64,000 nucleotides of DNA from Hyphomicrobiales bacterium (GTDB taxonomy: Bacteria; Pseudomonadota; Alphaproteobacteria; Rhizobiales; Rhizobiaceae). This document shows positions 44,405 to 50,645 of this stretch, piece after piece (the first letter of the stretch is position 1; every line of letters starts with the position of its first letter). Made by a program: the position numbers and the translations under genes. The DNA is taken from assembly GCA_900470155.1 (NCBI GenBank), contig UBZT01000010.1:1-64000 (forward strand), in the 5' to 3' direction. The notes beneath the pieces are model-generated. The model searched no databases. It was given only the letters and a program-made list of their open reading frames with translations, and had not been told where the DNA came from.

Positions 44405-45568
44405 ATGCCAATTCTGAACCGCGCCGCCGAACTCCAGTCGGAGGCCACCGAATGGCGCCGCCATCTGCACGCAAATCCCGAAATCCTCTATGACGTTGAA
44501 AATACGGCGAGCTTTGTCGAACAGAAGTTGAAGGAATTCGGTGTCGACGAGGTGGTGACAGGCATTGGCCGCACCGGCGTTGTCGGCGTTATCAAGGGAC
44601 GCGGCCAGGGCGATCGCGCCATCGGCCTGCGCGCCGACATGGACGCGCTGCCGCTGACCGAGATCACCGGCAAGCCCTGGGCATCGACGACAGAGGGCCG
44701 GATGCATGCCTGCGGCCATGACGGCCATACCGCCATGCTTCTGGGTGCGGCGAAGTACCTGGCCGAAACCCGCACCTTCCATGGCAATGTCGTGGTCATC
44801 TTCCAGCCTGCCGAAGAAGGCGGACGCGGCGCGCTGGCCATGGTCGAAGACGGCCTGATGGAGCGTTTCGGCATTGCGGAAGTCTACGGCATGCACAACA
44901 TGCCGGGCATGGCAGCCGGCAGCTTTGCCATCCGCAAGGGCGGCATCATGGCCGCACCCGACAAGTTCGCCATCAAGATCGGCGGCCGCGGCGGCCATGC
45001 TGCCGAGCCGCACAACACCATCGATCCTATCGTCGTCGGCGCGCAGATCGTCGGCGCGCTGCAGACGATTGCCGCCCGCAACGCCAATCCGCTGCGCTCC
45101 GTGGTGGTGTCGGTCACCCAGTTCCACGCTGGAACGACCCACAACATTATCCCGGAAGAAGCCTATCTGACCGGCACAGTGCGTTCGCTGGACGAGGCCG
45201 TGCGCGACCTTGCCGAAAAGCGGATCGCCGAGCTGGCCCATGGGATCGCTGCGGCAAACGGCGCAAAGGCCGAATTCGAATATGAACGCGCCTGCCCGGT
45301 GACGGTCAACCATCCAGCCGAAACGAACTATGCTGCACAGGCTGCCATCGACATCGCCGGCGTTCACAATGTCGATACCGATGTCGACGCCTCGATGGCG
45401 GGCGAAGACTTCGCCTTCATGCTGCAGGCAAGACCCGGCGCCTACATCATGATCGGCAATGGCAAAACCGCCGGCCTTCACAATCCTGCCTATGACTTCA
45501 ACGACGACGTCATAGGCCTTGGTATTTCCTATTGGGTCCGCCTGGCCGAACGCCGACTGACCGAATAA
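44405..45568 (+). CDS. M20 family amidohydrolase (hippurate-hydrolase-like)
   Basis: The 387-residue protein is an M20D metallopeptidase/amidohydrolase. The metal motif HACGHDGH is at 101-108, the Glu pair lies in QPAEEGG and the dimerisation-domain segment GRGGHAAEPH is typical. Substrates of this family include hippurate, N-acyl-amino acids and IAA conjugates; the one used here is unknown. The ATG at 44405 has an AGGA ribosome-binding site. The upstream in-frame region (44267-44404) is not supported. Confidence 0.9.
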   Translation: MPILNRAAELQSEATEWRRHLHANPEILYDVENTASFVEQKLKEFGVDEVVTGIGRTGVVGVIKGRGQGDRAIGLRADMDALPLTEITGKPWASTTEGRMHACGHDGHTAMLLGAAKYLAETRTFHGNVVVIFQPAEEGGRGALAMVEDGLMERFGIAEVYGMHNMPGMAAGSFAIRKGGIMAAPDKFAIKIGGRGGHAAEPHNTIDPIVVGAQIVGALQTIAARNANPLRSVVVSVTQFHAGTTHNIIPEEAYLTGTVRSLDEAVRDLAEKRIAELAHGIAAANGAKAEFEYERACPVTVNHPAETNYAAQAAIDIAGVHNVDTDVDASMAGEDFAFMLQARPGAYIMIGNGKTAGLHNPAYDFNDDVIGLGISYWVRLAERRLTE

Positions 45569-45650
45569 TCGCGCTCAGGCGTTGCCAGCACGGAGGTGGC
45601 AAGCAAAATCACTTGGCTTGCCGGCTTTGCTTTTGTATGGAGAAGGAAGT

Positions 45651-45727
45651 GGTCCCGTAGCTCAGCAGGATAGAGCATCAGATTCCTAATCTGAGGGTCA
45701 CGCGTTCGAATCGCGTCGGGATCACCA
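45651..45727 (+). tRNA. tRNA-Arg (anticodon CCU)
   Basis: This 77-base tRNA folds as a cloverleaf. The acceptor GGTCCCG pairs with CGGGATC and CCA is encoded. The anticodon stem TCAGA/TCTGA closes the loop TTCCTAA, giving anticodon CCT (reads AGG, arginine). The T loop GTTCGAATC is standard. tRNA-Arg(CCU) genes are frequent integration sites of mobile elements in bacteria, and the small-gene region begins right after it. Confidence 0.97.
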
Positions 45728-45854
45728 TTTGACCAATTTTTGCGGGTAAACGTTGAAGGGTTGTATTCGGACTGGAAACAGTCATGATGGCAACTTATGC
45801 TACGCCGACGTTTTGTATTCCAAATGCGTCAGCCTTGAACGGGAGGAAGCCATC

Positions 45855-46091
45855 ATGGCATCTGTATCCCTCGGCTCCTTGGCTCGTGAAAAAGCCGACA
45901 TCGTCGAACGTGCGGTAAGACGGATCAGTCGCCAGGAAAACTTGATCCTCGATACGAAACAGGCCGACAATGCCACCGCTTTGCTGATCTATCTGGTGGA
46001 AAGCGGCGTGCAGGATGTAGACGAGCTGGTTGAATTCGCCTCCCTTGCCAAAGGAAAGCGCTACGACCCCATGGACGGCAGTTTCACGTAG
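45855..46091 (+). CDS. Hypothetical protein (78 aa)
   Basis: The 78-residue protein begins MASVSLGSLAREKADIVE with a strong GGGAGGAAG ribosome-binding site. It is charged and likely helical, with no membrane segment or known domain. It follows the tRNA-Arg and ends before the minus-strand small gene. I do not recognise it. The in-frame extension to 45753 runs back near the tRNA and is not credible. Confidence 0.6.
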   Translation: MASVSLGSLAREKADIVERAVRRISRQENLILDTKQADNATALLIYLVESGVQDVDELVEFASLAKGKRYDPMDGSFT

Positions 46092-46144
46092 GCAGACGCC
46101 GCGCCCAGGCGAATGCGACGTTCGCGATGTGGGCGCGAGCCCGA

Positions 46145-46300
46145 CTACCGATCATCCTTGCCATAGATTTCCCCCGTCAATGCATCCCGGCGATAGCGGT
46201 TATTGGCGTGATCACGCATCTGCATCATCCCGTAGGCGATCACAGCGCCGACGAGAACGGGGCCGAGCACCAGTCCCAACAGCCATAGAAAATTGGACAT
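46145..46300 (-). CDS. Small single-pass membrane protein (51 aa)
   Basis: A 51-codon frame on the minus strand begins MSNFLWLLGLVLGPVLVGAV after a strong GGGAGGAGAG ribosome-binding site. It has one hydrophobic helix (residues 4-23) and a charged C-terminus with MMQMRDHANNRYRRD and a KDDR end. It is the last gene of a minus-strand group and lies 78 bp after the stop of the next small gene. The function is unknown. Confidence 0.65.
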   Translation of the reverse strand: MSNFLWLLGLVLGPVLVGAVIAYGMMQMRDHANNRYRRDALTGEIYGKDDR

Positions 46301-46378
46301 CCGCTCTCCTCCCAAGCAGATACATAAGGCTATACTTATTTACCAGAGTTGGGCGAAAGAGTCTCGCAAAACAACCGA

Positions 46379-46564
46379 TCAGGTTTCTTTTTCGCCCGCG
46401 GTCTTTTCCTCGATCGCTGCCTGCAACTCCAGGGCCAGCTTGATCAGATTTGTCGGCACGTGTTCGCGTGTATGTTCTTCCATCAGGAGATCGAGCTTTT
46501 CCCGGACAAGACCGCCCGCCCGATGGCGACGGCCCTTGCCCGACGCTCCCGCTGCTTTTTCCAT
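46379..46564 (-). CDS. Small protein weakly resembling NepR (61 aa)
   Basis: The 61-residue protein is basic at the N-terminus and helical in the middle: LVREKLDLLMEEHTREHVPT followed by NLIKLALELQ. The spacing of leucines, glutamates and the VP dipeptide recalls the NepR anti-sigma family (which has REL-LYxxVVxEPVPDRxLDLL). That resemblance is weak and by eye only. The gene sits about 840 bp from an EcfG-like sigma factor but in opposite orientation, which would be unusual for nepR. A GGGGGACC stretch serves as ribosome-binding site. Confidence 0.5.
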   Translation of the reverse strand: MEKAAGASGKGRRHRAGGLVREKLDLLMEEHTREHVPTNLIKLALELQAAIEEKTAGEKET

Positions 46565-46600
46565 TCGGTCCCCCGATCTTCATAATGCTTCATGTGGTCA

Positions 46601-46641
46601 CTGTTTCGCACTATCGGACAAACGACGCGTTTGCGAAACAG
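46601..46641. repeat. Perfect inverted repeat between two small genes
   Basis: CTGTTTCGCA (46601-46610) and TGCGAAACAG (46632-46641) are exact reverse complements, separated by 21 bases. No T-run follows on either strand, so a terminator is unlikely. It could be an operator or a long-loop RNA hairpin in the leader of the 61-residue gene. Confidence 0.7.
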
Positions 46642-46698
46642 GATTTGAGTGCGTTGATCGCCGATAGGCACCGTTCCGGTCAAACCGGCCGGGTGCTG

Positions 46699-47034
46699 CT
46701 ATGCATCACCGGGCTTCAGTTCGGGAAACTGCGCCAGAAGTGCCGCATCGTCGCTGAACGACTGCGGCGCACCGCTTAGGATGACGCTGACATTGTCACC
46801 AACCTCGACAGGCTCGTCATGGCTGACGTCTGTTTGTTCGCCGCTGGCGAGAACCAGGGTCGCACGCGACTTGAAACCTTGCTTGAGCAGCCAGTCGCGC
46901 GGCGCATGCATCGTGACGGTGGCCTGGTAGCGCGCGTCGACCCGCTCGACGGATACCTGGTAGGCCACCGGTGAAAGCCGCCCGCCTATCAAGATCTGTC
47001 CCTGCCCGTCGGCGTTTTCGAGATGCTGGGTCAT
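46699..47034 (-). CDS. Hypothetical protein (111 aa) under a stress-type promoter
   Basis: The 111-residue protein starts MTQHLENADGQGQILIGG with a good AAGGACGGAG ribosome-binding site. It has a predicted beta-rich core (LSPVAYQVSVERVDARYQATVTM and SRATLVLASGEQTDVS) and an acidic C-terminus. There is no known family that I recognise. A GGAAC-N16-TGTT sequence lies 62 bp upstream on the same strand, so it is likely part of the general stress regulon. An in-frame extension to 47154 would cross that promoter and is rejected. Confidence 0.65.
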   Translation of the reverse strand: MTQHLENADGQGQILIGGRLSPVAYQVSVERVDARYQATVTMHAPRDWLLKQGFKSRATLVLASGEQTDVSHDEPVEVGDNVSVILSGAPQSFSDDAALLAQFPELKPGDA

Positions 47035-47095
47035 CGCTCCGTCCTTTTCAGTGCTCTTCCGACTGTGCCATGGCACGCTGAATACCTGTCGAAAG

Positions 47096-47120
47096 AACAC
47101 TTGCCAGTGGCAGTTGTTCC
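47096..47120 (-). promoter_or_regulatory. EcfG-type promoter of the 111-residue gene
   Basis: On the minus strand GGAAC (47120-47116) and TGTT (47099-47096) are separated by exactly 16 bases. This matches the alphaproteobacterial general stress response consensus GGAAC-N16/17-CGTT with one mismatch. The start codon at 47034 is 62 bases downstream. Confidence 0.68.
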
Positions 47121-47336
47121 CCAGCTTCGCTGAAGCCGGGGCCGGAAGGCACAATTCAACCTACACTTTGTCGGGAGGCTTCGGCGAGGACCGCGCTTCG
47201 GCGATGGACGTATTCCAGCAACGTGCCCCCGCTTGGCCAGCAACGTGCCCCGCGTGGGGGAGAACCGCTTGGAATGCCTCAGGACATCCCTGGAATACAA
47301 TGCGCAACCGGGCGTAGGGCTTGCCGCATCGCCTTG

Positions 47337-47361
47337 GGAACTATGCGTATGGCGATGCGTT
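47337..47361 (+). promoter_or_regulatory. EcfG-type promoter of the ECF sigma gene
   Basis: GGAAC (47337-47341) and CGTT (47358-47361) are separated by 16 bases, a perfect match to the EcfG (RpoE2/SigT-type) consensus. Transcription would start near 47368, and the predicted TTG start of the sigma gene is at 47404. This suggests autoregulation, or control by another EcfG paralogue. Confidence 0.75.
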
Positions 47362-47403
47362 TCCAATCCATTGCGCTGATTGTTACCGTGGAGGGTGGTG
47401 AAC

Positions 47404-47913
47404 TTGTCGATCCGTAGAGCCGAGCTTGCTGCACAGTCCGATGTCGTGGACCTCATTCCGGCACTGCGTGCCTTCGCGCGCACCTTTTGCCAGAAGCCCG
47501 AGGAAGCCGACGACCTGGTGCAGGAAACACTGATGAGGGCCCTGGCCAATCTCGACAAGTTCGAGCCCGGCACCCGGCTGAAATCCTGGTTGTTCACCAT
47601 CATGCGCAACACCTTTTGCACGCGGATCAAGAAGAGCAGCCGTGAGAGTGTCGGGCTGCCTGAGGCACTGACGGCAACGCTGGTCACCGAGGCCAGTCAG
47701 GACTGGGTTGTGCAGGCTGACGAAGTTCGCCGCGCGCTGGAGCGGCTCCCCGCCCACCATCGCGAGATTCTGGTTCTGATCGTGATGCTGGGCGAGCGTT
47801 ACGAAGATGCAGCCGTGATCTGCGGGTGTGCAGTCGGCACGATCAAGAGCCGCCTCAACCGCGCCCGCGAACAGTTGAAGCGGGAACTTGGCGAAACCGC
47901 CGCCAGCCAGTGA
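47404..47913 (+). CDS. EcfG-like ECF RNA polymerase sigma factor
   Basis: This 169-residue ECF sigma factor has region 2 (DLIPALRAFARTF, ADDLVQETLMRA and LKSWLFTIMRN) and region 4 (VICGCAVGTIKSRLNRAREQL). The GCAVGTIKSR segment is strongly reminiscent of the EcfG family that directs the general stress response of alphaproteobacteria. The start is the TTG at 47404, preceded by GGAGGG at 8 bases; an upstream TTG at 47380 and GTGs at 47395 and 47398 have poor spacing. A consensus EcfG promoter precedes it. No PhyR gene is nearby. Confidence 0.85.
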   Translation: MSIRRAELAAQSDVVDLIPALRAFARTFCQKPEEADDLVQETLMRALANLDKFEPGTRLKSWLFTIMRNTFCTRIKKSSRESVGLPEALTATLVTEASQDWVVQADEVRRALERLPAHHREILVLIVMLGERYEDAAVICGCAVGTIKSRLNRAREQLKRELGETAASQ

Positions 47914-48107
47914 AGAAGCGTCGCCGTTTCATGCCTGTATGAAATGCTGGGCTCTTCCATGCCGGCCCGAGAGGACTGCGCCCTCGTCGATCAAGGCGCG
48001 CCCATTGCCCAGTCCGCACGACACCTCCAGCCATTCACAATGCAGATGATCTGAAACCGCAATTCGGTGCAGGTTTTCGATCAGGCGTTTTGAGAAGACA
48101 CAATGCA

Positions 48108-48136
48108 CAAGGCCGGCAACAGGGTTACCGGCCTTG
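48108..48136. terminator. Hairpin between the ECF sigma gene and the DUF892 gene
   Basis: CAAGGCCGG (48108-48116) and CCGGCCTTG (48128-48136) form a perfect 9-bp stem with an 11-base loop. It lies 19 bp after the stop of the minus-strand DUF892 gene. There is no strong T-run on either side, so it may act as a factor-assisted or weak bidirectional terminator. The rest of 47914-48154 shows no gene. Confidence 0.5.
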
Positions 48137-48154
48137 CAGGTCTCATTCTGACAA

Positions 48155-48655
48155 TTATGCCGCTTTCTTCTGCGCGGCCGAATTGACCGCGGTTTGCGCC
48201 AGCTTGGTCAGCGTCTCATCGGTCTTGGATTCTTCGGCAAGCGTTGCATCCAGAAGCTTCACGGCTTCGGTGAGACCAAGCTGCTGCGCCCAGGCGCGAA
48301 GCGTGCCATAGCGGCTGATCTCGTAATGCTCGACAGCCTGGGCTGCGGCAAGCAGACCGGCATCATGCGCCGGCGAGCCCTTGAACTCGTCCATGATCTC
48401 TTCGCCTTCTTCGACGATGCCGTCGATAGCGGCACAGGTCTTGGCGCGCGGACGCTTGCCGATGATCTCGAACACGTCCTGTAGGCGCTCGATATGCCCT
48501 TCGGTCTCGTCCTTGTGCTGCAGGAAGGCCGCCTTCAGCTTCTCGCTCTGAGCGGCGCGCGCCATCTTCGGCAGCGTCTTCAGGATCTTGCGTTCGGCGT
48601 AGTAGATGTCCTTGAGTGTTTCGTAAAACAGATCGTCGAGGGTCTTGTCTGCCAT
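48155..48655 (-). CDS. DUF892 ferritin-like protein (YciE/YciF family)
   Basis: This 166-residue all-helical protein is of the DUF892 family, whose E. coli members YciE and YciF are stress-induced and ferritin-like. The blocks LDDLFYETLKDIYYAERKI, HKDETEGHIERL and AVEHYEISRYGTLRAWAQQLG carry the Glu and His residues that bind a di-iron centre. A perfect EcfG-type promoter precedes it and a strong GAGGAG ribosome-binding site is present. The role is presumably stress protection. Confidence 0.92.
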   Translation of the reverse strand: MADKTLDDLFYETLKDIYYAERKILKTLPKMARAAQSEKLKAAFLQHKDETEGHIERLQDVFEIIGKRPRAKTCAAIDGIVEEGEEIMDEFKGSPAHDAGLLAAAQAVEHYEISRYGTLRAWAQQLGLTEAVKLLDATLAEESKTDETLTKLAQTAVNSAAQKKAA

Positions 48656-48690
48656 TGGAGTTTCTCCTCAGTTTGAAATGACAAGACTCG

Positions 48691-48715
48691 AACGGCTCTC
48701 GACGCCGAAAGTTCC
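48691..48715 (-). promoter_or_regulatory. EcfG-type promoter of the DUF892 gene
   Basis: On the minus strand GGAAC (48715-48711) is followed after 16 bases by CGTT (48694-48691), a perfect consensus match. The start codon at 48655 is 36 bases from the -10. This is the third such site within 1.7 kb. Confidence 0.78.
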
Positions 48716-48809
48716 TGGAACACAGCGGCTTTCGCGACAAAGGCGTGCAAAAGCGACAGGCAGCACCCGACCCGCTGCTCACCGATTTGGCGCCAGTGGA
48801 AAGGGAAAA

Positions 48810-50645
48810 TCAGCGGGCGCTGCTGAGCGCCCGTAGCGCATTGAGGATGACGGCGACATCGATGACTTCCTGGAGCAGCGCACCCTGTACCGGCGCGAGA
48901 TAGCCGAAAGCCGCCGCGATCATTGCACCGCCGGACAGGACGAGTCCAGCCACGGCACTCTGCACGGCGATGAACCGGGCGCGTCTGGCGATCGCCACCG
49001 CCACCGGCAGGCGGGACAGGTCATCCACCAGCAACACCACATCGGCCGTCTCCGACGAGGCCGCCGCGCCGCGTGCGCCGATCGCCACGCCGACATCGGC
49101 AACCGCCAGTGCCGGCGCGTCGTTGACGCCGTCGCCGACCATCATCACCGATCCATGCTGCCGCTCGGCTTCGATCACCGCCACCTTGAGCTCGGGCGAC
49201 AGGTCACCATGGGCGCCATCGAGACCGAGCCGGGCGGCGGCGGCCGTGACGATATCGCTGCGATCGCCCGACGCCATGACCAGCCGCGTGATGCCGACCT
49301 TGCGGAAGGCATCGACCGTCAGGCCGGCATCCGCCCGTACCTGATCGGAGAGCAGGATATGGCCGGCACCGCGGCCGTCGATGGCAACCGCGACCACGGC
49401 CGTTTCAGCCGGCACGACCTGGCGCGGCAGCAGTTCGCCCGGCGCCAGCCGCGAGGCGACAAATCCCCCGCCGCCAACCGTCACGCGGTGGCCGGTGACA
49501 AGACCTTCGATACCAAACCCGGCGGTCTCGTGAATGTCTTCGGGCAGGTCGAGATGCAGGCCGCGCGCGACCGCGGCCCGCACCAGCGCTTCGGCCGTGA
49601 CATGGCCGGACGCCTGATCCAGCGACGCTGCGAGCCGCAGGATGTCATCGGCGACAAAGCCCGGACAACAGCGGATCTCGCTGACCTCGGGCCGACCGGC
49701 CGTCAGGGTGCCGGTCTTGTCCAGCACCACGACCTTGACCGCTGCCAGCGCTTCCAGTCCGCCGCCGCTCTTGATCAGCACGCCATGGGCGGCGGCCCGT
49801 GACATGCCGGATATCACAGCGACGGGAACGGCGAGAATCAATGGACAGGGCGTTGCCACCACCAGCACGGCAAGAACCCGGGTCGCATCCTGGCTGAACC
49901 CGTAGGCCAGACCTGCCAGGGCAAGGGTGAAAGCCAGGAAAGCCAGGGCGTAACGATCCGCCAGCCGGACCATCGGCGCCCGGCTTTTCTGCGCATTTTC
50001 CACCAGCCTGACGATGCCGGCATAGGTACTCGCGGCAGACTCGCGCAGGACCAGAAGGTCGAAGGCTGCACCGACGACCGTCGCACCGCTCGGCACTTCG
50101 GCGCCTTGCACAAACCGCACCGGCATCGGCTCGCCGGTCAGCGCAGAGAGATCGAGCTCGACCACACTGGCAAGAACGCGGCCATCGACGGGAATGACCT
50201 CGCCGACGCGCATCAATGCGCGGTCGCCGGGCTTGAGGGTCTCGATCGGGGCGGAGACCAGCTCTGCGCCGCGATAGACCATGGCGGTGCGGGCAACGCG
50301 GCCCAGAAGCGCCGTCATGTCGCGCCGCGCCCGCCCCTCGGCAAAACTCTCCAGCTGCTGCCCGCCGGCATACATCACGGCAACGATCGCGCCGGCCAGC
50401 GTTTCGCCCAGAATGAGGGCCACGCCGATCGACAGCGCGGCAATCGCATCGACACCGACCCGGCCGGCAAGCACCGAGCGGGCGATCTCGGTCAATAGCG
50501 CGATCAGCACGACCAGTCCGCTGACGAACCAGGCGGTCGACGCAAGATCCGGTCGGCCAAGCAGATAAAGCAGGCCACCGCCGGCCAGCCCCAGAAGGGC
50601 AAAGCCAGCCAGAAGGGCGGGTGCCATTTCGCGCAAACGCAGCAT
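48810..50645 (-). CDS. Heavy-metal translocating P-type ATPase without N-terminal metal-binding domain
   Basis: The 611-residue P1B-like ATPase starts at the ATG at 50645 (MLRLREMAPALL), which has an AGGA site. The transmembrane ion-site motif is TPCPLIL (265-271), the phosphorylated Asp309 lies in DKTGT (309-313), the actuator motif reads SALTGEPMP and the hinge GDGVNDAPAL. There is no HMA or His-rich N-terminus, and the usual Ser-Glu-His-Pro is replaced by SGHV (346-349). The transported metal is unclear. Longer in-frame starts up to 50831 overlap or crowd the divergent dxr gene. An operon partner is not seen. Confidence 0.85.
   Translation of the reverse strand: MLRLREMAPALLAGFALLGLAGGGLLYLLGRPDLASTAWFVSGLVVLIALLTEIARSVLAGRVGVDAIAALSIGVALILGETLAGAIVAVMYAGGQQLESFAEGRARRDMTALLGRVARTAMVYRGAELVSAPIETLKPGDRALMRVGEVIPVDGRVLASVVELDLSALTGEPMPVRFVQGAEVPSGATVVGAAFDLLVLRESAASTYAGIVRLVENAQKSRAPMVRLADRYALAFLAFTLALAGLAYGFSQDATRVLAVLVVATPCPLILAVPVAVISGMSRAAAHGVLIKSGGGLEALAAVKVVVLDKTGTLTAGRPEVSEIRCCPGFVADDILRLAASLDQASGHVTAEALVRAAVARGLHLDLPEDIHETAGFGIEGLVTGHRVTVGGGGFVASRLAPGELLPRQVVPAETAVVAVAIDGRGAGHILLSDQVRADAGLTVDAFRKVGITRLVMASGDRSDIVTAAAARLGLDGAHGDLSPELKVAVIEAERQHGSVMMVGDGVNDAPALAVADVGVAIGARGAAASSETADVVLLVDDLSRLPVAVAIARRARFIAVQSAVAGLVLSGGAMIAAAFGYLAPVQGALLQEVIDVAVILNALRALSSAR

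Follow-up and report, generated by a model that had tools for sequence, protein, structure and literature searches.

A non-canonical EcfG sigma factor island with a NepR-related small gene, a candidate anti-sigma gene, in a Hyphomicrobiales genome

The window analysed here is a stretch of 64,000 nucleotides from a Hyphomicrobiales bacterium (GenBank assembly GCA_900470155.1, contig UBZT01000010.1, positions 1 to 64,000 of the forward strand). Between positions 46145 and 48715 it carries a compact island around a gene for an extracytoplasmic function (ECF) sigma factor of the EcfG type. The genes and promoter sites, read in part from the sequence and in part from comparison with relatives, are as follows.

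47337-47361, + strand: predicted EcfG-type promoter of the sigma gene (GGAAC-N16-CGTT, perfect)
47404-47913, + strand: ECF sigma gene of EcfG2/RpoE5 type (Pfam Sigma70_r2, Sigma70_r4_2 and PhyR_sigma2)
48691-48715, - strand: predicted EcfG-type promoter of the DUF892 gene (GGAAC-N16-CGTT, perfect)
48155-48655, - strand: DUF892 (ferritin-like) gene (Pfam DUF892, E 2.3e-60)
47096-47120, - strand: predicted EcfG-type promoter of the 111-residue protein gene (GGAAC-N16-TGTT, variant -10)
46699-47034, - strand: gene for an uncharacterised 111-residue protein, predicted to be mostly beta
46379-46564, - strand: gene for a 61-residue NepR-related protein, a candidate anti-sigma factor (family profile comparison, linkage)
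46145-46315, - strand: gene for a protein of about 50 residues, start codon uncertain (one hydrophobic stretch; homologues adjoin the same genes)

The two perfect strings lie 33 bp (sigma) and 35 bp (DUF892) from their genes and the TGTT variant 61 bp from the 111-residue gene; the sigma start codon is uncertain, with GTG 47395, GTG 47398 and TTG 47404 as candidates. We presume the DUF892 protein to be a stress-protection target. On the minus strand the 111-residue gene is followed, after about 134 bp, by the 61-residue gene and then by the gene of about 50 residues. A sequence-only reading of the region had already named an EcfG-type sigma gene and EcfG-type promoters before it, before the DUF892 gene and before the hypothetical (111-residue) gene, and all of these were found. 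It was also right that two more small genes follow on the same strand; it missed that one of them, the 61-residue gene, is NepR-related and a candidate private regulator of the sigma factor.

The identity of the sigma factor was established from its three Pfam domains and from its place in a tree of 112 sigma factors, from which identical proteins had been dropped. It falls in a clade of 105 entries together with RpoE5 of Sinorhizobium meliloti and EcfG2 of Rhizobium etli, both of which are classed as ECF15 in the literature, and three canonical sigma factors fall outside; the support of this fork is 93 of 100, just below the threshold at which forks were starred. The protein has ECF regions 2 and 4, groups with EcfG proteins, and has the string GGAAC-N16/17-CGTT before its own gene and before putative targets. 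By these sequence characters the window sigma is a non-canonical EcfG (ECF15; EcfG2/RpoE5-like). An indirect hint that it may recognise this promoter is its sigma4 recognition part, which shares 21 of 28 residues with the canonical sigma of the same genome; for two other ECF sigma factors of that genome the figure is 12 of 28 each. Second EcfG copies are already well known from R. etli, S. meliloti, Methylobacterium extorquens and Sphingopyxis, and because the RpoE5/EcfG2 clade is known to be non-canonical, a second EcfG branch such as this one is of a known kind.

The canonical stress locus of the genome lies elsewhere. Neither phyR nor nepR stands beside the window sigma gene; nepR-ecfG and phyR are on another contig (C16:1094000-1113000), which bears out the earlier statement that the island, with no phyR nearby, is not the canonical nepR-ecfG-phyR locus. 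This locus groups, within about 6.4 kb of C16, ecfG with a NepR gene before it, phyR, from which a second NepR gene diverges, and a CsbD gene; a span of 5.4 kb contains six perfect EcfG sites. Both genes of the genome that match Pfam NepR are on C16, as is that for PhyR, and the canonical EcfG is 46% identical to the window sigma. Two NepR matches were seen in 37 of 40 genomes of the same genus and one in the other three.

The sequence-only reading had argued that three sites in so short a span are far more than chance would give. This is overstated. Perfect GGAAC-N16/17-CGTT strings number 94 in the 5.48-Mb genome and the reversed string used as a control 131, so that rarity is no argument, and motif rarity alone was rejected as evidence. 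The deficit relative to the reversed control may be explained by codon usage or by avoidance of stray promoters. In a preset stretch of 2571 bp, 0.044 perfect sites are expected, and the probability of two or more is 9e-4; nevertheless, about 2.2 pairs as close as the two perfect sites of the window are expected across the genome, and spacing alone is weak evidence. Eleven such pairs were observed, of which six are inside the canonical locus and one is a palindromic overlap.

The lack of enrichment and the 2.2 pairs expected speak for the view that a frequent string has clustered here by chance; the position of the sites contradicts it. Thirty-eight of the 94 sites are intergenic and no more than 300 bp upstream of a gene on the same strand, against 8 of 91 control sites (Fisher p 5e-7), and 18 of 94, including those of the window sigma and DUF892 genes, lie 15-60 bp upstream, against 0 of 91 (p 3e-6). 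The controls are the 91 of the 131 reversed-string sites among the matches listed, repeats of one string being counted once; the genes were predicted by us from codon usage learnt from the window; and the TGTT site before the 111-residue gene, not being a perfect string, is outside the 94.

Conservation in relatives contradicts coincidence as well. A site was scored as conserved when an intact GGAAC and at most one mismatch in CGTT were found no more than 200 bp upstream; counts were compared with those in shuffled sequences, and upstream regions sharing at least 20 common 12-mers were counted once. On this non-redundant basis, a site precedes 61 of 74 homologues of the sigma gene (shuffle mean 1.6), 34 of 36 of the DUF892 gene, whether or not beside a sigma gene (1.0), and 10 of 10 of the 111-residue gene, with GGTT, TGTT or AGTT (0.17). 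It also precedes six of seven homologues of the gene of about 50 residues (0.12); no EcfG-type site was found upstream of the window copy of that gene. No such site precedes the 61-residue gene in any of 11 non-redundant relatives, nor the flanking 78-residue gene (0/3) or P-type ATPase gene (0/2). We conclude that position and conservation, not rarity or spacing, carry the case for the promoters. That all three are under the control of an EcfG-type sigma factor seems very probable on this sequence evidence, and we put practically no weight on coincidence.

The -10 element differs by gene among the relatives: CGTT or CATT prevails in the sigma promoters, GGTT or TGTT in those of the DUF892 and 111-residue genes, with GGTT predominating for DUF892. 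The TGTT of the window is usual for the 111-residue gene, since the promoters of its relatives are mostly GGTT or TGTT. This gene-specific difference might separate the preferences of the two sigma factors.

Homologues of the 61-residue protein follow the majority pattern LLTEIExExVPDRLxxLAxELQxAL, and L27, P37, A44, L47, Q48 and A50 are invariant in 42 sequences. When a profile of 21 family members was compared with one of 29 distinct NepR sequences, the probability of relationship was 92.7% and the score 36.3; the best of 100 column shuffles gave 19.9 and the reversed profile 14.9, and none of the 100 shuffles reached the score. Pfam NepR (PF18557) is the commonest family match, although a weak one (E<=1 for 22 of the 42 members, the lowest value being 1.8e-4), and the NCBIfam NepR model finds one of 42 members (E 0.032). 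Searched against the sequences of the PDB, the family profile gives as its top two matches the two NepR chains, with weak E values of 0.3 and 0.41; the better of these, 5uxx_B, comes from the same entry as 5uxx_A, the solved chain closest to the window sigma by sequence. A model of the 61-residue protein has two helices broken at VP, with a predicted local distance difference test (pLDDT) score of 69.6.

The family departs from NepR at a defined point. L[RK]xxY is present in 29 of 29 NepR sequences, and the family has [ILV]-x-x-L-x in its place: the R position is A, D or S and the Y position L or M, each in 53 of 57 sequences, with Y kept in one. Of the two leucines that follow the proline, the second is alanine in 57 of 57. 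The E and P of the NepR core E-x-[IV]-P are kept. Because LRxxY is lost, we class the gene as NepR-related and not as NepR, and conclude from these profile comparisons that the family is a distant relative of NepR, an anti-sigma factor. In Sphingomonas melonis NepR, alanine at the Leu or Tyr of LRxxY weakens function (PMC6599016). The loss of the motif suggests that the 61-residue protein pairs with the divergent second sigma and not with PhyR.

The family is linked to the second sigma. Neighbours were counted in 80 sigma loci of named genomes, in stretches of up to about 6 kb on either side. A profile of 15 sequences of the window's group, at a cut-off of E<=0.01, found members in 43 of the 80 loci, 40 of which had contributed nothing to its training; in every case the small gene and the sigma gene are on opposite strands. 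With a wider profile added, there were 44 of 80, at 0.3-5.3 kb from the sigma gene and on the opposite strand in 44 of 44. At the same E<=0.01, the small-gene profile had no match in 130 stretches (306 kb) of the window's own genome. Linkage is not always tight, the two genes being on different contigs in one genome (G007) and about 18 kb apart in another (G023).

Within the genus, a confident match to the small gene was found in 19 of 26 genomes with the sigma and in none of 10 without it (Fisher p 8e-5). The limits were set by us at an identity of at least 57% for the sigma (partial in G030) and E<1e-6 for the small gene; the window's own genome (G000) was included, and G060-G063 were left out. 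Weak matches in seven genomes (E 5e-5 to 4e-3) were not counted; those in G029, G035 and G063 coincide with canonical NepR genes, those in G022 and G011 are on the contig of the sigma gene, that in G004 is on another contig, and that in G013, one of the ten genomes without the sigma, is not a listed NepR. Since several of the ten (for example G012, G015, G027 and G033) have other EcfG-like sigma factors of 42-48% identity, what these ten lack is a close relative of the window sigma. What is new here is a small-gene family, NepR-related by profile comparison and linked to the second sigma; among the papers listed in literature searches, none was recognised by its title and abstract opening as describing a conserved family of this kind.

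Several observations weigh against reading the 61-residue protein as a NepR-derived anti-sigma factor. The window copy itself has no match in Pfam (E<=1 for NepR) or NCBIfam, scores lowest among the 21 members when compared with our local NepR profile (E 0.095, in a small set), and is missed at E<=10 when that profile is run over all six frames of the window. A search of the PDB for the fold of the model gave no match. A profile built from NepR alone matches in just 10 of the 80 loci at E<=0.01; from this and from the missed window copy it follows that the relationship is distant. At E<=10, Pfam NepR picks out of the window's genome the two genes on C16 and, beyond these, a single match at E 1.5; the 61-residue gene is missed, and so is visible by family comparison only. 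No partner was detected in 36 of the 80 sigma-locus stretches, nor in those of R. etli and Agrobacterium tumefaciens. The weakness of the window copy and the loci lacking a partner would also suit a small gene that derives from NepR and has drifted or become a relic, the second sigma being unregulated at the protein level, as some EcfG2 proteins are reported to be; those of Caulobacter crescentus and Sphingomonas do not interact with NepR, according to PMC3892343. Against a relic stand the constraint on the core, with its six invariant residues, and the constant linkage on the opposite strand, and we consider decay of this kind improbable.

One of the nearest described systems is RpoE5 of S. 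meliloti (SMb21484, pSymB), which is 57% identical to the window sigma and has the same promoter type before its gene. A member of the 61-residue family lies just downstream of rpoE5 on the opposite strand (locus L136, 4519-4674); there the small gene is downstream of the sigma gene and convergent with it, whereas in the window it is upstream. An unannotated RsiA-like open reading frame opposite SMb21687 was described in S. meliloti in 2018 (PMC6180224), and the family member fits it, an equation that rests on position and strand; one probable instance of the family has therefore already been published. The rpoE5 promoter has been mapped experimentally (PMC6180224), and the sigma promoter at the locus of S. 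meliloti 4H41 (L102) has the same sequence; unlike the window, that locus yielded no DUF892 or 111-residue homologue within about 6 kb.

R. etli EcfG2 (PF00052, plasmid p42f) is likewise a non-canonical sigma factor of the EcfG clade without phyR or nepR nearby (PMC3892343), and a ferritin-like gene, presumably of the DUF892 type, directly adjoins it. Both primers printed in PMC3188799 were found flanking the gene, which supports its identity. It differs from the window in that the sigma factors are 49% identical, no GGAAC-N16/17-CGTT site with up to one mismatch in the -10 lies within 300 bp upstream of ecfG2, and no member of the 61-residue family was found in a 20-kb stretch (p42f 46000-66000); the authors of PMC3892343, too, found no anti-sigma gene near ecfG2. 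Induction of a fusion to the ecfG2 promoter has been described in R. etli. In the R. etli stretch, a GGAAC-N16-NGTT site lies no more than 300 bp upstream of 6 of 11 genes tested, and the surroundings of ecfG2 may form a larger stress island than that of the window.

In S. meliloti, rpoE5 depends on RpoE2 (PMC6180224; PMC3616915). Since the rpoE5 promoter is of the same type, the canonical sigma probably feeds the window branch as well, and the island is most likely downstream of it. A hierarchy of two EcfG sigma factors is also described for EcfG1 and EcfG2 of Sphingopyxis granuli (PMC7083833); there, one sigma factor is constitutive, has no EcfG promoter and is divergent from a nepR2-ecfG1 operon, whereas the second sigma of the window has an EcfG promoter of its own and lies away from phyR and nepR. 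The sequence-only reading had suggested a second, separately controlled branch. A second branch accords with the membership of the sigma in the RpoE5/EcfG2 clade; that its control is separate is only half likely, given the dependence of rpoE5 on RpoE2.

On balance, we favour the explanation that this is an EcfG2/RpoE5-like island with feed-forward from the canonical sigma and a 61-residue anti-sigma factor, and judge it probable as a whole. The PhyR-NepR switch would free the canonical EcfG, leading to transcription of the second sigma gene, and the second sigma would then reinforce its own promoter and those of the island genes, making a feed-forward loop. Less certainly, the 61-residue protein, which has no EcfG promoter of its own, would bind and hold the second sigma and set a threshold for it, much in the way that NepR restrains the canonical EcfG. 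We regard feed-forward from the canonical sigma as likely; that the 61-residue protein is the anti-sigma factor of the second sigma we would affirm or deny with about equal readiness.

The island might instead be merely part of the canonical EcfG regulon, with a second sigma that adds little and a 61-residue protein that binds PhyR as a feedback antagonist, like S. melonis NepR2. The activation of rpoE5 by RpoE2 fits this, as does the single target found on overexpression of RpoE5 in S. meliloti (PMC6180224), which also counts against the explanation that we favour. As in the window genome, M. extorquens and S. melonis have NepR-like proteins in addition to NepR. Where these paralogues have been shown to act, they bind PhyR, and they are not known to bind EcfG: in two-hybrid tests of M. 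extorquens proteins two NepR paralogues interacted with PhyR, and an interaction with an EcfG was seen for none of three (PMC4814048), and S. melonis NepR2 bound PhyR (PMC6599016). These results, too, detract from the explanation that we favour. The window family differs from those paralogues in having lost LRxxY, of which the Leu and Tyr matter in S. melonis NepR, and in its linkage to the second sigma: it tracks that sigma, with no confident match in the genomes that lack it. Moreover, EcfG is reported to control both M. extorquens META2p0735 and S. melonis NepR2, whereas the relatives of the 61-residue gene lack an EcfG site throughout. On these grounds, we hold a purely canonical regulon with a PhyR antagonist to be unlikely.

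A wider form of the explanation that we favour is offered tentatively: the RpoE5/EcfG2 clade may have a dedicated NepR-derived anti-sigma family without LRxxY, with genes on the strand opposite to that of the sigma gene, so that the branch would be insulated from PhyR and answer another signal. We are more inclined to doubt this than to accept it. According to PMC3892343, roughly half of the complete genomes of Alphaproteobacteria have extra EcfG sigma factors. As a means of restraining them, a NepR-derived family, tied to the RpoE5/EcfG2 clade and recognised weakly or not at all by Pfam and NCBIfam, is a concrete candidate. Such an anti-sigma factor could explain the near-absence of targets when RpoE5 is overexpressed.

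The remaining features of the island are less well characterised. The 111-, 61- and about 50-residue proteins have no Pfam match, and an Rfam scan of 45500-49000 found one tRNA and nothing else. By its hydrophobic stretch, the protein of about 50 residues (46145-46315, - strand) is probably a membrane protein. The model of the 111-residue protein, built from three sequences, has a pLDDT of 86.6, and comparison with PDB folds gave no match at E<=0.001; a PRDWL motif is conserved in its family. In a literature search for a link between DUF892 and EcfG, the word DUF892 occurs in none of the best 15 of 119 matches. A DUF892 homologue lies within the stretch in 22 of the 80 sigma loci, three of these being partial or weak. 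In G012, G015 and G033, which have no close relative of the window sigma, another EcfG-like sigma factor (42-43% identity) has a DUF892 match no more than 1 kb away; the pairing of sigma and DUF892 genes may therefore predate the clade.

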